Notes under the pieces: model-generated
What the model was told of the DNA's origin: nothing
Databases searched by the model: none
Seen by the model: only the letters and a program-made list of their open reading frames with translations
Translations under genes and position numbers: made by a program
Assembly: GCA_017513095.1 (NCBI GenBank)
Contig: JAFWDJ010000012.1
Span: 62,001-126,000 of the forward strand
Length of the DNA stretch: 64,000 nucleotides
Direction of reading: 5' to 3'
From: Clostridia bacterium
Lineage (GTDB): Bacteria; Bacillota; Clostridia; Oscillospirales; RGIG577
Part shown: one piece after another, positions 17,426 through 25,624 of the stretch
Numbering within the stretch: the stretch's first letter is position 1
Layout: every line of letters begins with the position of its first letter

Positions 17426-20400
17426 ATGAAAAAAACAATGAAAAAAGCAGTTGTATGGCTGCTGATACTCGGCGTGCTGATATTCAGCGTCCCGGCATTC
17501 GCGGCGGGGGAAGCCGCGGGCGGCGATGCGGGATATGATGAGGATTTACTATATCAAGAATCTAATCAAGAAATAAAAGGAGCTATTATTCAAGAGATCG
17601 ATGAAACTCCATATGATGTAGATACAGGAGAAAGCTATGTGGAGTGGGTTGATACCGATAGCTATATGATGATAGAAAGCCGTATCAGCTTTGATTCACT
17701 GCTGGAAATGATGCCCCAAAAGCTAAAAGTACATATGGGAGGTAGCGAAACGGCGACCGAAGTATCGGTTTTGTGGCAGTCAAAACAGAACTATGAAGAC
17801 TCAAATGAAGCATACTATGAGTTTTATCCCGTTTTATCAGAGGAAACATGTATTGACGACCATATTCTGCCGCATATTATAGTTGAAATTAAAGATGAAC
17901 ATGAATATGAACAGGCGGATGAGGTAGCACAATTACAGGAAACTGTCACCTCTGAGATGATTACCTCGAGAATAAATGAGCTTGTTTCAAAGTTAAACGG
18001 AAAATATTTTAGTACGAAAGGCCCTAACACTGGCTGCAAAAGTTGGGTAAGTGGACACGGTTGCAGCTATTGTCTTAATTCTAACGTTATTTCCTGCAGT
18101 TGGTTTAAGGATATGTTTGGTTTTTCAAGCTTGAAAGTGGATCAATTCCCCACCCACTATTACTCAGATGGTGAAGGGACTCGCGCAGGATACTCTTGTT
18201 ATGGATTCGCAAATTTTGCTGAGTGGTATATTTTTAGAACTTCAGCCACTTCAAATGTACGATCCACAAAAATAGGAACTTATGCTTTAACAAAAGCAAA
18301 TTTAAGCGCGTATGCAAAAGAAGGAGATATATTAAGATTTTTAAATGATGGTCATTCGGCTATTTTTATTAGTGCAAACAGCAGTAATTTTACTGTTTTA
18401 GACTGTAATTCCAGCGGAACATATAACTGCAAAGTGCAAAAGCGTACTTTTTCATATAATTCCTCAGACAAATTTACCGTATCAAGGGCGCAGAATTATC
18501 CGACAGACAACACTTCCACGTTAAAGATATCGCCCGGGTCGTTCCCCGAAGGAACGTATAATACGATGGATTCGTATAACCTTACCGGCACGGTAACGTC
18601 GAATTATACGATAAACTATTTTAAAGGCAGAATAATAAACTTTGCCACCGGCAAAGAGGTTATGGAATACCACTACAACCCCAATTCGACAAAGGTATAT
18701 ATTGCGGATTCGGCGGTAAACCAAAACCTTAAATTCGGCAATCTGAGCAACGGAATATATTACTTATGCTATTATGCAGAGGATACGAGCGGCGCAGAAT
18801 ATTCGTGGGACAGCAAATCAACACCGTTCGGAAAAGGAAAAGCAACGATAACGTGGAATGCAAACGGCGGCAACGCATCTTCCGCAAGCACAACAAAGCT
18901 GTATTGTGATAAAATAGGCACATTGCCTACGGCGACAAGATCGGGCTACAGCTTCGACGGTTGGTACACGGCGGCGAGCGGCGGCACGAAGATAACGACA
19001 AGCACTCTTGTTACGGGAGCGGCAACGTATTATGCTCATTGGACATCTGTTTCGTACACGGTAAAATACAATCAAAACGTTGACAACGGCAAAATAATGG
19101 ACATAGCCGATCAGACTAAAACAAAGGATCAGGATCTGAAGCTGAGCACAGTCGTGCCTGCAAGGAACGGTTATACTTTTGCGGGATGGGCGACCTCGGC
19201 AGGCGGCAGCGTGACATACAAGCCGGGCGATACATATAAAAACAATGCAGACGTTACGCTTTACGCAGTATGGACGAAGAATGCAAAATCACCCGAGAAG
19301 GTGACGTATAACGGACATACGTATCAGATATTCGATTTCACTGCGGAAGGCAGTTGGAAGACGTGGGATGAAGCGAAAGCATACTGCGAAGCGCAGGGCG
19401 GACATCTGGCGGCTATAACGACGAGCGAAGAAGACCTGTTTCTGTACGACTATATAAAGAAGAGCGGATACAACAGCGTTTACTTCGGTCTGACCAATAC
19501 GAGCGGAAGTTGGAAATGGGTAACCGGCGAAGCCTTTTCATATTGTGATTGGGCGACAGGGCAGCCTTCCGGAGGAACGGAGCATTACGGCACGTATTGG
19601 TGGTCTCTTGGGGGCAAGTGGAACGACGCCGACGGAAAAACCAACAAGAACGTACTGGCCTACCTCTGTGAATGGGACACGGCTGAATATACCAACAACA
19701 TTCATCTTTGGGCAAGCGGATTTAAGAATCAAGAGGGCAACAGCAACGATAAGAGCGCGCTTGACATCGGCACGACCGCCTTTACGAAATCCTATCAGGA
19801 CAAGTATGTGCTGACGGCTTCGTACAATAAAACGGAAATCCCGAACGGGTATTATCTTGATACCACGAGATGGGGAAGCAGACAATATACGGGCGACTCG
19901 TCGTGGAAATGGTACGAAATGGGCAAGGACGAGGTGACGCAGCCCGCACAGGGCGCGTGGATAGAGTACGACTGCCATCCGTATGAGTACAGCATAACGT
20001 ACAACTTAAACGGCGGAACGAACAACGCCGAGAATCCCGCGAAGTATACGGTGCTCTACGGAGTATCGTTTAAGGACCCGTCAAGAGACGGCTATAGCTT
20101 TACGGGATGGACGGACGGCAGCGGCAAAAAGATAACGGGCATAAACGAGGGTCAGAACGCATCGTTTGCTTCTGCGGAAGACATGATATCCAAACTGAAA
20201 ACGCGGACAACGGGCAACGTGACGGTAACGGCGAACTGGGAAAAGAATTCGACCGTTGAGCCCGTGCCGATCACGATAACGTCCATCAAATGCGAAAACG
20301 GCGCGGTCGTGCTCGCATGGCAGCCGCAAAGCGGCGTCGACGGCTACCGCGTGCATAAGAAGACCGGCTCCGGCAAGTGGACTACGCTCGTTGCGTCGAC

Positions 20401-21382
20401 CACGGCGACGACTTACACCGATACGGCAGTGACCGAGGGCACGACGTACACGTATACCGTGCGCTCGTTCGTCGGCAGCGAATACAGCACGGGTTACAAC
20501 GACACGGCGAAGTCGATAAAGGTAACGTCGGGCACGGCGGCCGAGCCGTCCCCCGTTGCGATAACGTCCATCAAGTGCGTAAACGGCGCGGTCGTACTTG
20601 CATGGCAGCCGCAAAGCGGCGTTGACGGCTACCGCGTGCATAAAAAGACCGGCTCCGGCAAGTGGACTACGCTCGTTGCGTCGACTACCGCAGCGACTTA
20701 CACCGATACGGCAGTGACCGAGGGCACGACGTACACGTATACCGTCCGTTCGTTCGTCGGCAGCGAATACAGCACGGGCTACAACGACACCGCGAAGTCA
20801 ATAAAAGTCACCGGAGCGGCCGTTGAGCCGTCCCCCGTTGCGATAACGTCCATTAAATGCGTAAACGGCGCGGTCGTGCTCGCATGGCAGCCGCAAAGCG
20901 GCGTCGACGGCTATCGCGTACATAAAAAGACGGGCAGCGGCAAGTGGACTACGCTTGTTGCTTCCACTACGGCGACGGCTTATACCGATACGGCAGTGAC
21001 CGAGGGCACGACTTACACTTATACCGTGCGCTCGTTCGTCGGCAGCGAATACAGCACCGGCTACAACGATACCGCGAAGTCGATAAAGGTAACGTCGGGC
21101 ACATCTTCGGAGCCTCCGGCGGTAACGATAAGCTCGATACAGTCGACCGGCGGCATGGTGGTGCTTTCGTGGAACGCCGCTCCCGGCGTTGACGGCTACC
21201 GCGTATACCGCAAGACCGGCTCCGGAAAGTGGACGACGGTCTGCGCGTCGACGACGGACACGATGTTCATCGATACGAATGTAACGGCGGGCACGACGTA
21301 TACGTATACGCTGCGTTCGTTCATAGGCAGCACGTACAGCTCGGGCTACAATGACACGGCGAAATCGATAAAGGCGAAGTGA
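17426..21382 (+). CDS. Large secreted modular protein: cysteine-peptidase-like, InlB-type, C-type-lectin and FnIII-type modules
   Basis: 1318 residues with a signal peptide (KKAVVWLLILGVLIFSV, cleavage near 27). Modules in order: an acidic region (28-190); a papain-fold-like segment (about 195-360) with YSCYGFANF (Cys near 256), GDILRFLNDGHSAIF (His) and FTVLDCN, resembling CHAP/NlpC-P60 peptidoglycan amidases; InlB B-repeat-type domains (about 470-620) with GYSFDGWYT and GYTFAGWAT; a C-type-lectin-like domain (625-750) with WDEAKAYCEAQGGHLAAIT and final LCEWD; another InlB-like part (850-940); and four fibronectin-type repeats of about 95 residues (946-1318). No LPxTG or SLH anchor. DNA up to about 18520 is visibly AT-richer than the rest, suggesting a mosaic origin. 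Adhesion or wall/mucus binding is inferred; peptidase activity is unproven. Start follows AAAGGAGGA. Confidence 0.85.
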   Translation: MKKTMKKAVVWLLILGVLIFSVPAFAAGEAAGGDAGYDEDLLYQESNQEIKGAIIQEIDETPYDVDTGESYVEWVDTDSYMMIESRISFDSLLEMMPQKLKVHMGGSETATEVSVLWQSKQNYEDSNEAYYEFYPVLSEETCIDDHILPHIIVEIKDEHEYEQADEVAQLQETVTSEMITSRINELVSKLNGKYFSTKGPNTGCKSWVSGHGCSYCLNSNVISCSWFKDMFGFSSLKVDQFPTHYYSDGEGTRAGYSCYGFANFAEWYIFRTSATSNVRSTKIGTYALTKANLSAYAKEGDILRFLNDGHSAIFISANSSNFTVLDCNSSGTYNCKVQKRTFSYNSSDKFTVSRAQNYPTDNTSTLKISPGSFPEGTYNTMDSYNLTGTVTSNYTINYFKGRIINFATGKEVMEYHYNPNSTKVYIADSAVNQNLKFGNLSNGIYYLCYYAEDTSGAEYSWDSKSTPFGKGKATITWNANGGNASSASTTKLYCDKIGTLPTATRSGYSFDGWYTAASGGTKITTSTLVTGAATYYAHWTSVSYTVKYNQNVDNGKIMDIADQTKTKDQDLKLSTVVPARNGYTFAGWATSAGGSVTYKPGDTYKNNADVTLYAVWTKNAKSPEKVTYNGHTYQIFDFTAEGSWKTWDEAKAYCEAQGGHLAAITTSEEDLFLYDYIKKSGYNSVYFGLTNTSGSWKWVTGEAFSYCDWATGQPSGGTEHYGTYWWSLGGKWNDADGKTNKNVLAYLCEWDTAEYTNNIHLWASGFKNQEGNSNDKSALDIGTTAFTKSYQDKYVLTASYNKTEIPNGYYLDTTRWGSRQYTGDSSWKWYEMGKDEVTQPAQGAWIEYDCHPYEYSITYNLNGGTNNAENPAKYTVLYGVSFKDPSRDGYSFTGWTDGSGKKITGINEGQNASFASAEDMISKLKTRTTGNVTVTANWEKNSTVEPVPITITSIKCENGAVVLAWQPQSGVDGYRVHKKTGSGKWTTLVASTTATTYTDTAVTEGTTYTYTVRSFVGSEYSTGYNDTAKSIKVTSGTAAEPSPVAITSIKCVNGAVVLAWQPQSGVDGYRVHKKTGSGKWTTLVASTTAATYTDTAVTEGTTYTYTVRSFVGSEYSTGYNDTAKSIKVTGAAVEPSPVAITSIKCVNGAVVLAWQPQSGVDGYRVHKKTGSGKWTTLVASTTATAYTDTAVTEGTTYTYTVRSFVGSEYSTGYNDTAKSIKVTSGTSSEPPAVTISSIQSTGGMVVLSWNAAPGVDGYRVYRKTGSGKWTTVCASTTDTMFIDTNVTAGTTYTYTLRSFIGSTYSSGYNDTAKSIKAK
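20276..21379 (+). repeat. Four tandem fibronectin-type coding repeats (~285 bp)
   Basis: Equivalent points occur at 20276, 20561, 20843 and 21128, a period of 285, 282 and 285 bases (94-95 codons). Units 1-3 are nearly identical in DNA (shared SGVDGYRVHKKTGSGKWTT); unit 4 is clearly diverged. Such near-identity points to recent duplication or gene conversion and makes unit number prone to change or assembly error. Confidence 0.9.
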
Positions 21383-22701: not shown

Positions 22702-23211
22702 CTATTTTCCCCAAAAGCGGCTGTTTACGTTCTGCGGGAGCGTGAGCGCATACCCGCGCTGAATCATCGAATAGAGCTTGAACGCCACGAGATCGGGCGC
22801 GTAGGAGAGCGTGCGGCACATAGAGAAGTAGTCCATGCCGCCGTCCGCGAGCGAAAGCACGTCGGAATCGGAGATAAGCAGCTCCGCCGCGAAAAGATTT
22901 GCCTGATACTCGGGCTTCGACGACGTATCGTAAAGCGAAAAGTCGCGCATGACCGACGAGGCGGCCAGCTCGCGGTGAAGGCGGTCGTGCCCCAGCTCGT
23001 GCGCGCAGACAGCGCGCTTGTCGCGCTCGTTTAAGTTCGCGTTTATCACGATGAAGCGGCGGCGGTTCATCACGCAGTAAAAGCCCTTTAAATTCTTGAA
23101 GTCCGCGCGCTCGCGCACGTCGACCCCGAGCGCCTCGCATATAAGGAACGGGTCGTCCGTCTTATATTTTTCCCGAAGCCTGTGCGCCTCGCTGACAATA
23201 TATTCTCTCAT
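22702..23211 (-). CDS. ImmA/IrrE family metallo-endopeptidase
   Basis: A 169-residue zinc peptidase of the ImmA/IrrE (DUF955) family. The catalytic HELGH lies near residue 91 within AVCAHELGHDRLHRE, and the third-ligand helix EYQANLFAAELL near 125 is intact. Relatives cleave an XRE-family repressor made by the adjacent gene: ImmA cleaves ImmR in ICEBs1, IrrE/PprI cleaves DdrO in Deinococcus after DNA damage. Here it is the second gene after an XRE regulator (27-base gap), and the pair faces dinB. That context suggests control of translesion synthesis; the target is inferred. No other integrative-element genes are near. Confidence 0.92.
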   Translation of the reverse strand: MREYIVSEAHRLREKYKTDDPFLICEALGVDVRERADFKNLKGFYCVMNRRRFIVINANLNERDKRAVCAHELGHDRLHRELAASSVMRDFSLYDTSSKPEYQANLFAAELLISDSDVLSLADGGMDYFSMCRTLSYAPDLVAFKLYSMIQRGYALTLPQNVNSRFWGK

Positions 23212-23238
23212 AAGGGCAATGCATCTCCTTCGGGCAGA

Positions 23239-23640
23239 TTATTCGGACTTTTGGGGTGCGTCGCTTTTCGCCCGGCGGTTCGCTTCGAAATATATCTGCA
23301 TTATCGCCCGAAGGAACGCCTCGCGGTCCTCCGCGTCGAGGTCGCCGCCCGCAAAAAGCGCGCTCGTCTGCGCGATTATGCTTTTCGCCCGCGCCGCGCC
23401 CCTGCCGCCGTGCGCCTCGGCCGCTTCGACCACGAATTCCTCCTCGACGGAAAAAAGCTCGGACGGCTTACAGCCCAAAACGAAGCAGAGCTTCGTGACC
23501 ACGGCCTGATTTTTCGGATAGGAGCGTCCCATCTCATAATTCTGCAGCGTGCGCGTCGTTACGCCTACGCGCGCGGCAAGCTCGCTCTGCGTGATACTTT
23601 GGGAGTCACGAAGTTCCCTTAATTTGTCCTTGAATGCCAT
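23239..23640 (-). CDS. XRE-family repressor paired with ImmA-type peptidase
   Basis: A 133-residue regulator: N-terminal HTH (KLRELRDSQSITQSELAARVGVTTRTLQNYEMGRSYPK, about 5-45), then a C-terminal region (60-133) that could hold the dimerisation and cleavage site. The start at 23640 follows GAGGAGG; an in-frame ATG at 23730 would lie among the operators and is rejected. The leader and the divergent dinB promoter contain ACGAAA/TTTCGT palindromes, which I infer to be its binding sites, so it should repress both itself and dinB until cleaved by the peptidase encoded next. Confidence 0.9.
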   Translation of the reverse strand: MAFKDKLRELRDSQSITQSELAARVGVTTRTLQNYEMGRSYPKNQAVVTKLCFVLGCKPSELFSVEEEFVVEAAEAHGGRGAARAKSIIAQTSALFAGGDLDAEDREAFLRAIMQIYFEANRRAKSDAPQKSE

Positions 23641-23663
23641 TGCTGCGGCCTCCTCGTTAAAAA

Positions 23664-23681
23664 TACGAAATATTTTTCGTA
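23664..23681. promoter_or_regulatory. Operator candidate 1 (XRE/dinB intergenic region)
   Basis: Perfect palindrome TACGAAATATTTTTCGTA (7-base arms, 4-base centre), just upstream of the plus-strand -35 box and in the leader of the XRE gene. Confidence 0.65.
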
Positions 23682-23690
23682 AAAATGTCA

Positions 23691-23718
23691 TTGACAAACG
23701 AAATATGATACGTATAAC
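23691..23718 (+). promoter_or_regulatory. Promoter of dinB with an internal half-operator
   Basis: Perfect TTGACA (23691-23696), 16-base spacer, TATAAC (23713-23718). The spacer holds ACGAAATATGATACGT (23698-23713), a degenerate copy of the flanking palindromes. Confidence 0.65.
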
Positions 23719-23727
23719 ATAAAAATA

Positions 23728-23745
23728 CACGAAACACTTTTCGTA
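23728..23745. promoter_or_regulatory. Operator candidate 2 (overlapping both transcription starts)
   Basis: CACGAAACACTTTTCGTA, with perfect 6-base arms ACGAAA/TTTCGT and the same spacing as candidate 1. It covers the predicted start points of both divergent promoters. Confidence 0.6.
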
Positions 23746-23748
23746 TAA

Positions 23749-23777
23749 ATTGTATTATTTATTTCGTATTTTGTCAA
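23749..23777 (-). promoter_or_regulatory. Promoter of the XRE-ImmA operon
   Basis: On the minus strand, perfect TTGACA and TACAAT with a 17-base spacer that contains a TACGAAATA half-site. It lies between operator 2 and the dinB ribosome site. Confidence 0.65.
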
Positions 23778-23789
23778 GGGGTGACGACG

Positions 23790-24986
23790 ATGGAACGCAT
23801 TATTCTGCACTGCGATCTCAATAATTTTTACGCCTCGGTAGAATGCCTGAAAAACCCCGCGCTCGCGGCCGTGCCGCTGGCCGTATGCGGCAGCCGCGAG
23901 GAAAGACGGGGCATTGTGCTTGCGAAGAACGAGAAGGCGAAGGCCTTCGGCGTAAAAACGGGCGAGGCCATATGGGAGGCGAAGAAGAAATGCCATGCGC
24001 TCGTCTGCGTGCCGCCCGATATGCGCTCATATATGTTCTGGTCGAAGCGCGTGAGGGGCATATACGACAATTACACCGACGTCGTGGAGCTGTTCGGCAT
24101 CGACGAATGCTGGCTCGATATGTCAGGCAGCGCGCATCTTTTCGGCGGCGGCGAGAGCGCGGCCCATATGATAAAAGAGGAGATAAAGGCGCGCACGGGA
24201 CTTACCGTGTCGTGCGGCGTGAGCTTCAACAAGATATTCGCAAAGCTTGGAAGCGACCTAAAAAAGCCCGACGCCGTAACGGTGCTTTCCGCGGACTCGT
24301 GGCGAGAACGTGTATATCCGCTGCCCGCGTCGGAGCTTATGGGCGTGGGGCGCTCGACGTACAGAAAGCTTTATTCGCGCGGGATATTCACGATAGGCGA
24401 CATAGCCGAAAGCAGCGAGGACTTTATGCACTATCTTCTCGGAAAGAACGGACTTTGGCTCATCCGCGCGGCGAGGGGGCTCGACGATTCGCCCGTCGTG
24501 AGGGGCGAATATATGCCCGAGCCGAAAAGCATAGGCCGCGGCGCGACGTATCCGCACGATATAATACGGCGCGAGGAGATAAGCACGCTTATTTTGAAGC
24601 TTTCGCACGAGGTCGCAAGAAAGCTTCGGGCGCACAGATTTTTCGCCGGCAGCATACAGCTTACGATAAAGCGAAGCGACCTTTCGCACCGCGAATACGG
24701 CGCGCCGCTGTCCTCGTTTACGCAGACGGCCTACGACATATGGCGGTGCGCGCTCGAGCTGTTTCTGTCGCGCCACGACGTGAGCGCGTTCCCCGTGCGC
24801 GCGCTTACGGTACGCGCGTGCGAGCTTCGCGGCGAACGCGAGCCGCGCCAGCTTTCGCTTTTCGAGGACGCGCGTGCCATGGAAAAGCGCGAGCGCGTCG
24901 AGCGCACGATGGATAAGATAAACGAAAAATACGGCAAACGGACGATCCAGGCGGCCTCGTGCCGGTTTGATCCGGTCAGGATATAA
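23790..24986 (+). CDS. dinB: DNA polymerase IV (Y-family translesion polymerase)
   Basis: A 398-residue Y-family polymerase that copies past damaged template bases, at the price of errors. The palm motif HCDLNNFYASVE gives the first metal-binding Asp at residue 9; the second acidic pair is in FGIDECWLDMSG near 107-108. The SCGVSFNKIFAKLGSDLKKP segment (about 135) and the C-terminal little-finger domain (235-350) are complete. I chose ATG 23790 because AAGGGGTGA lies six bases upstream; a GTG at 23781 overlaps that site. The palindrome-rich gap shared with the XRE-ImmA operon implies damage-inducible, LexA-independent control. No clamp-binding motif was assigned. Confidence 0.95.
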   Translation: MERIILHCDLNNFYASVECLKNPALAAVPLAVCGSREERRGIVLAKNEKAKAFGVKTGEAIWEAKKKCHALVCVPPDMRSYMFWSKRVRGIYDNYTDVVELFGIDECWLDMSGSAHLFGGGESAAHMIKEEIKARTGLTVSCGVSFNKIFAKLGSDLKKPDAVTVLSADSWRERVYPLPASELMGVGRSTYRKLYSRGIFTIGDIAESSEDFMHYLLGKNGLWLIRAARGLDDSPVVRGEYMPEPKSIGRGATYPHDIIRREEISTLILKLSHEVARKLRAHRFFAGSIQLTIKRSDLSHREYGAPLSSFTQTAYDIWRCALELFLSRHDVSAFPVRALTVRACELRGEREPRQLSLFEDARAMEKRERVERTMDKINEKYGKRTIQAASCRFDPVRI

Positions 24987-25054
24987 ACATCTTGGGAAAT
25001 TATTGCGACCTGACGCGTTCGGTGATAAAATTAAAAAATACGGAGGAAAACGGT

Positions 25055-25624
25055 ATGGAAAAGAAGACGTGCTGCTTCAGCGGGCACAGGCCGAAGGCCT
25101 TCCCGTGGAGATACAACGAAAAGGACCCGCAATGCGTCTGGCTGAAGGGGCGCATTGCAAAAGAGATAGAGCGGGCCGTATGCGACGGCTTTACCCGCTT
25201 TATCGTCGGCGGCGCCATGGGTGTTGATATGTGGAGCGCCGAGGCGGTGATAGAGTACAAAAAGAAGCATAAAAGAGACGATATAGAGCTTGTTTTAGCC
25301 ATACCCTTTCTTGATTACGCCGTGCATTTTACCGAGGACGATAAAAACCGCCTTATGAAGATAATCGACGCGTCGAGCGAGCGCGTGCTTACGTCTCCCG
25401 AGGACGATACGAGCCGCGTCACGCTCAAATATTATAAGCGAAACGAGTATATGGTCGACAATTCGCAGCGGCTCATAGCCGTTTACGAGCCGCGCGCCGG
25501 TATGAGAGGAGGTACGAAATATACCGTGGAATACGCCGAAAAGAAGGGCGCGGAGGTCGTCGTTATACCGTGGCGCACGGAATATGAGGCCGAAATGCGC
25601 GAAAAACATAATAAAAAAGTATGA
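25055..25624 (+). CDS. SLOG-family protein of the YpsA/DUF1273 type
   Basis: A 189-residue protein with the Rossmann-like SLOG pattern: KTCCFSGHRPKAFPW at the N-terminus, FIVGGAMGVDMWSAE near 48-62 and a C-terminal MRGGTKYTVEYAEKKG near 150. SLOG proteins are thought to sense or process nucleotide-derived ligands; YpsA of B. subtilis affects cell division and oxidative-stress resistance. The start at 25055 follows CGGAGGAAAAC; an in-frame ATG at 24992 is unsupported. It lies 68 bases after dinB in the same direction with no terminator between, so it may be cotranscribed and belong to the same stress regulon. Confidence 0.85.
   Translation: MEKKTCCFSGHRPKAFPWRYNEKDPQCVWLKGRIAKEIERAVCDGFTRFIVGGAMGVDMWSAEAVIEYKKKHKRDDIELVLAIPFLDYAVHFTEDDKNRLMKIIDASSERVLTSPEDDTSRVTLKYYKRNEYMVDNSQRLIAVYEPRAGMRGGTKYTVEYAEKKGAEVVVIPWRTEYEAEMREKHNKKV

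Follow-up and report, generated by a model that had tools for sequence, protein, structure and literature searches.

A candidate XRE-ImmA proteolytic switch facing the translesion polymerase gene dinB in a genome of the Oscillospirales

Genes at the xre-immA-dinB locus

The window (the whole stretch of 64,000 nucleotides that was analysed) carries a gene for an M78 peptidase of the ImmA/IrrE type, hereafter called ImmA (22702-23211, minus strand; 169 aa, Pfam match 1.7e-16), downstream of a gene for an XRE repressor (23239-23640, minus strand; 133 aa, HTH_3 match 1.7e-10). Facing this pair is dinB, which encodes a Y-family translesion polymerase (23790-24986, plus strand; 398 aa, IMS match 1.4e-41, start ATG 23790). 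A YpsA/SLOG-family gene (25055-25624, plus strand; 5e-24) begins 68 bp after dinB and is probably co-transcribed with it. The start of xre is best placed at ATG 23640, since the longer GTG open reading frame (to 23730) would cross the operators described below. A sequence-only reading of this DNA had proposed that an intact HELGH peptidase is encoded after an XRE repressor, and that both genes are divergent from dinB with shared palindromes. The family matches and the HExxH...E signature agree with the first statement, and the 149-bp intergenic region, with two exact copies of one palindrome, with the second. The host had been called a clostridium, which is correct at the level of the class Clostridia (Oscillospirales) and not for Clostridium itself. 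The SLOG gene was seen beside dinB within the genus and not found there beyond it, and a role for SLOG as a core partner was rejected on these grounds.

The M78 gene is the single match to its family in the whole genome. One DinB-type match was obtained and no second Y-family polymerase hit, making dinB the only error-prone polymerase gene detected. Inspection of the DinB sequence by eye revealed the DE active-site pair in GIDECW and a tail, QLSLF, resembling a clamp motif. Also present in the window are a desulfoferrodoxin gene near the locus and a gene (17426-21382) whose 1318-aa product looks secreted and combines C-type lectin with Listeria-Bacteroides repeat domains, its C-terminal tandem repeats being near-identical.

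Residues H71, E72, H75, H79, E101, A104 and N105 of ImmA are invariant in 44 relatives and include the HExxH motif and E101 as third ligand. The best folds matched by the ImmA structural model (pLDDT 88.7) were PprI/IrrE and CapP, in agreement with sequence profiles; Foldseek gave weak E-values (0.001 and above), which served solely as support for the sequence results. ImmA stops after the peptidase helices and has no GAF-like sensor domain, the domain that PprI requires for activation by ssDNA (PMC10904395). The AlphaFold model of XRE (pLDDT 87.8) consists of an HTH domain (residues 1-62), a helix (65-96), a six-residue linker (97-102) and a second helix (103-127); the interhelix linker begins at F96-A97. 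These residues belong to an FAGG motif in which F96, A97 and G98 are conserved in at least 90% of 46 relatives and G99 in all of them. The ICEBs1 repressor ImmR has its ImmA cleavage site, F95-M96, in the equivalent linker (PMC8960796). Based upon the conservation of FAGG, the linker model and this equivalence, ImmA is predicted to cleave XRE in the linker after F96.

Operators and promoters in the intergenic region

Two sigma-A-type promoters were predicted in the 149-bp region, face to face and overlapping: a near-consensus dinB promoter (TTGACA-16-TATAAC, 23691-23718, plus strand, start about 23725) and an xre-immA promoter (TTGACA-17-TACAAT, 23749-23777, minus strand, start about 23742). 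The predicted start sites overlap by about 18 nt, and two polymerases could hardly occupy both opposed promoters together. Three putative operators are distributed over this arrangement. Operator A (ACGAAA-TATT-TTTCGT, 23665-23680), an exact palindrome, lies in the xre leader; operator B (ACGAAA-TATG-ATACGT, 23698-23713), an imperfect one, lies inside the spacer between the -35 and -10 elements of the dinB promoter; and operator C (ACGAAA-CACT-TTTCGT, 23729-23744), again exact, spans both predicted start sites. An extra half-site, TTTCGT (23762-23767), falls inside the spacer of the xre promoter. Occupancy of operators B and C by a repressor should close both promoters.

The exact form ACGAAA-N4-TTTCGT is present in two copies where 0.01 would be expected in the window, and the palindrome score of the intergenic region is 18.8, compared with a mean of 6.0 and a maximum of 10.8 for shuffled sequences. 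Throughout the 2-Mb genome the exact palindrome occurs nowhere but at these two positions, and the four one-mismatch sites elsewhere are all within coding sequence. In a genus mate the site at the position of operator B is perfect, so that both exact copies are those at the dinB-spacer and start-site positions. Exact sites number two per genome in three genus members and one per genome in three genomes of family f4, all of them in the xre-dinB intergenic region. A search for the motif upstream of other repair genes had been suggested, and it was not found there in any of these six genomes. A regulon that includes other repair genes was accordingly rejected, and the restriction of the operator to this one region indicates a one-locus switch.

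Half-sites differ among lineages (ACGAAA or ACGCAA, AGGAAA or GGGAAA, and GTGAAA), and the second position tracks residue 33 in the recognition helix of XRE, with glutamine paired to C, arginine to G and isoleucine to T. This match holds in 28 of 37 deduplicated cases compared with 12 expected, a value reached in 0 of 100,000 shuffles, a covariation inflated by related sequences and partly confounded by shared ancestry. Insofar as residue 33 fits the half-sites, it links this XRE, rather than an unrelated factor, to these predicted operators. The motif is found upstream of homologues in a diverged, helix-matched form; its absence there had been named in the sequence-only reading as evidence against the switch. 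Taken from sequence comparison, the evidence that XRE controls both the dinB and the xre-immA promoters is strong.

Recurrence of the cassette and the absence of LexA

Synteny of xre, immA and dinB extends well beyond one strain and recurs across many Clostridia. Among the 80 GTDB ImmA sequences closest to this one, 46 have a Y-family polymerase gene adjoining the pair, with one more at a looser cut-off, and several others lie at loci cut by contig ends. In a sample of the order the pair is divergent from a DinB-type gene in 19 of 197 genomes, one of these cassettes being split across two contigs and one having a fragmentary ImmA. Overlapping face-to-face promoters were predicted in 62 of 63 related XRE/Y-polymerase intergenic regions, with 0 expected in shuffles. 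The operators of relatives are usually three in number and about 30-40 bp apart, and a 4-bp spacer fits best.

XRE-ImmA pairs of the same kind adjoin two unlike Y-family polymerases, namely DinB and a UvrX-like polymerase with a YolD-type gene. In Lachnospiraceae the cassettes mostly have the latter (UvrX-like/YolD), a different polymerase at 26% identity; in Blautia luti the polymerase is followed by a YolD-like open reading frame. On a conjugative megaplasmid of R. albus the order is XRE-ImmA-polymerase-YolD, all in one direction, and on a Monoglobus plasmid XRE-ImmA is followed by a gap and then by DNA polymerase IV. At three loci (L102, L129 and L209) the polymerase gene lies after immA on the same strand and does not face xre. 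In two cassettes immA contains one in-frame stop (L187, 2974-3480, minus strand; L121, 5980-6510, plus strand), explicable either by an error in sequencing or by a switch fixed in the off state.

Distances among XRE, ImmA and DinB proteins are correlated (Mantel r 0.50-0.77). Cassette DinBs cluster: the tree needs roughly five or six changes, compared with 20 when shuffled, and most fall in one clade. Clustering and correlated distances together suggest that the cassette was inherited or transferred whole, with a few later pairings. The possibility that LexA was exchanged for XRE at one orthologous dinB is weakened, as most cassette DinBs form a clade of their own.

Control of mutagenic polymerases in the SOS response is generally ascribed to LexA. 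Canonical LexA was not found with two models in this genome, nor was it found in its genus, and the window contains no GAACN4GTTC LexA box. A LexA box controlling dinB, named in the sequence-only reading as evidence against the switch, is therefore lacking, and the genome is without LexA as well. A hidden LexA elsewhere in the genome was rejected with the two models, the sole S24 match being a prophage repressor. RecA is present, and recA lies on the same contig as the prophage edge (G000:C5:27000-40000).

In the sample of the order, 66 of 197 genomes have no canonical LexA match at an E-value of 1e-35, an unexpectedly large share of about a third. Counted by genome in this sample, 15 of 19 genomes with the cassette lack LexA versus 51 of 178 others, a strong association (p 2.6e-5); counted by genus, p ranges from 0.016 to 0.083 according to the treatment of one mixed genus, and the association is partly confounded by shared ancestry. 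Given the by-genus values, an association of the cassette with LexA loss is suggestive only. The cassette is not strictly a LexA substitute, since 4 of the 19 cassette genomes do have LexA. Several other dinB genes of the order, mainly from another DinB clade, have GAACN4GTTC boxes near their starts, unlike the dinB of this locus; the output gene type placed under a repressor is the same in both.

The proposed switch and alternative readings

We consider it likely that a mutagenic polymerase is controlled here by a self-contained switch of the ImmR/ImmA kind, confined to one locus and derepressed by proteolysis. Bound to the three operators, spaced about 31-33 bp apart, an XRE dimer would shut off dinB and the opposed xre-immA promoter. 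Upon a trigger, for which DNA damage or replication stress is the likeliest candidate, ImmA would cut the XRE linker between the two C-terminal helices at the LF96-AGG motif, by analogy with ImmR/ImmA and DdrO/IrrE. The cut XRE would fail to dimerize, and DinB, probably together with the SLOG protein, would be made. The switch should then reset itself, because xre would also be derepressed. In this gut-type genome, which has no LexA, such a switch would take the place of the SOS response in controlling translesion synthesis. The LexA-independent switch of the sequence-only reading is supported, with synteny, motif and LexA box, all the tests that could be computed, favourable to it. Counted against it are the missing PprI-type GAF-like domain, the presence of LexA in some carriers and the two immA genes with stops.

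The architecture resembles several known repressor-protease pairs. ICEBs1 of Bacillus subtilis likewise combines a small XRE repressor with a stand-alone ImmA-type peptidase, and ImmR has an HTH domain, two C-terminal helices and a cut site in the linker (PMC8960796), as predicted here. Features of an ImmR/ImmA pair found at this locus include predicted operators between divergent genes, the modelled linker helices and the peptidase active site. The ICEBs1 pair has conjugation genes as its output, whereas the present one has a translesion polymerase, opposed overlapping promoters and a chromosomal location. DdrO/IrrE (PprI) of Deinococcus is similar in that an M78 peptidase and an XRE protein govern DNA-repair genes independently of LexA; IrrE is longer, has a GAF-like domain and serves a regulon, in contrast to the single locus here, with no GAF-like domain and the peptidase gene in the repressor operon. 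The CapH/CapP system of CBASS operons likewise pairs an XRE repressor with an ImmA-like peptidase (CapP profile match 2.7e-12), and ssDNA activates CapP according to work cited in PMC10904395. CapP is about 290 aa, compared with 169 aa here, and its target is a defence operon; DinB and the SLOG protein gave no PADLOC match.

The most serious alternative, which we nevertheless regard as unlikely, is that the switch is real and responds to a signal other than DNA damage: a zinc or redox shift, a cell-cell peptide or the entry of mobile DNA. IrrE responds to zinc/redox (PMC7907104), ICEBs1 ImmA responds also to nearby recipient cells (PMC8960796), and the present ImmA, with a desulfoferrodoxin gene nearby, has no sensor domain. 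Every cassette counted, however, has a translesion polymerase of one of two types as its output, which is best fitted by DNA damage, and inspection of the window showed no gene for a peptide or other signal.

A chance juxtaposition of dinB with the remnant of an ICE or phage immunity module is very unlikely and already disfavoured. The pair is closely related to ImmR/ImmA, to phage repressors and to plasmid copies; the neighbours in the window nonetheless look chromosomal (ftsZ-, smc-, rpsB/tsf-, leuS- and recG-like), the shared-promoter layout with Y-family polymerases is repeated in 62 of 63 loci, and most cassette DinBs are of one clade. No integrase or conjugation genes were found nearby in the window gene list or in family scans of nine near genes. 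The earlier remark that mobile-element context is absent thus holds for the window and fails for cassette relatives, which occur on plasmids. Makarova et al. 2009 placed Xre/COG2856 among candidate toxin-antitoxin-like systems (PMC2701414), a role that is highly improbable here, where the operators and promoters couple the pair with dinB; cleavage of the Xre repressor by its partner protease is also favoured in that 2009 study. Least probable is a hidden S24-type regulator of dinB, as the one XRE-S24 protein of the genome (G000:C5) adjoins terminase-like and portal-like genes (L177, G000:C5:27000-40000), identifying it as a prophage repressor, and the window has no GAACN4GTTC.

Already known, then, are the pairs ImmR/ImmA, DdrO/IrrE and CapH/CapP and a link of the DUF955 peptidase family to DinB in SOS-like contexts, made as a passing remark in 2013 (PMC3765255); the passages concerned mention no XRE partner, operators, promoter architecture or relation to LexA. 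No description of an XRE-ImmA-dinB cassette by name was found in the literature searched, in which coverage of key papers was incomplete. Relative to that literature, the recurring cassette, opposed promoters, helix-matched operators, single-locus reach and LexA-less hosts appear to be new. For some LexA-less bacteria of the order, the proposed switch would offer a concrete answer to how mutagenesis is controlled, and would link a control device of mobile elements to the mutation rate of gut Clostridia under stress. More tentatively, and with somewhat less than even confidence, XRE-ImmA-Y-polymerase may be a transferable mutagenesis switch that repeatedly took over translesion synthesis in clostridia losing LexA, and that senses damage with no sensor domain.

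Related XRE-ImmA pairs at loci L080, L082, L084, L085, L094, L095, L099, L112 and L143 have upstream of XRE a divergent gene for a conserved protein (about 175-205 aa) whose resemblance to DUF1492 is weak at best; the hosts are other Clostridia, for example Pseudobacteroides, Petrocella and Fusibacter. This protein is possibly a second output of the same kind of switch.
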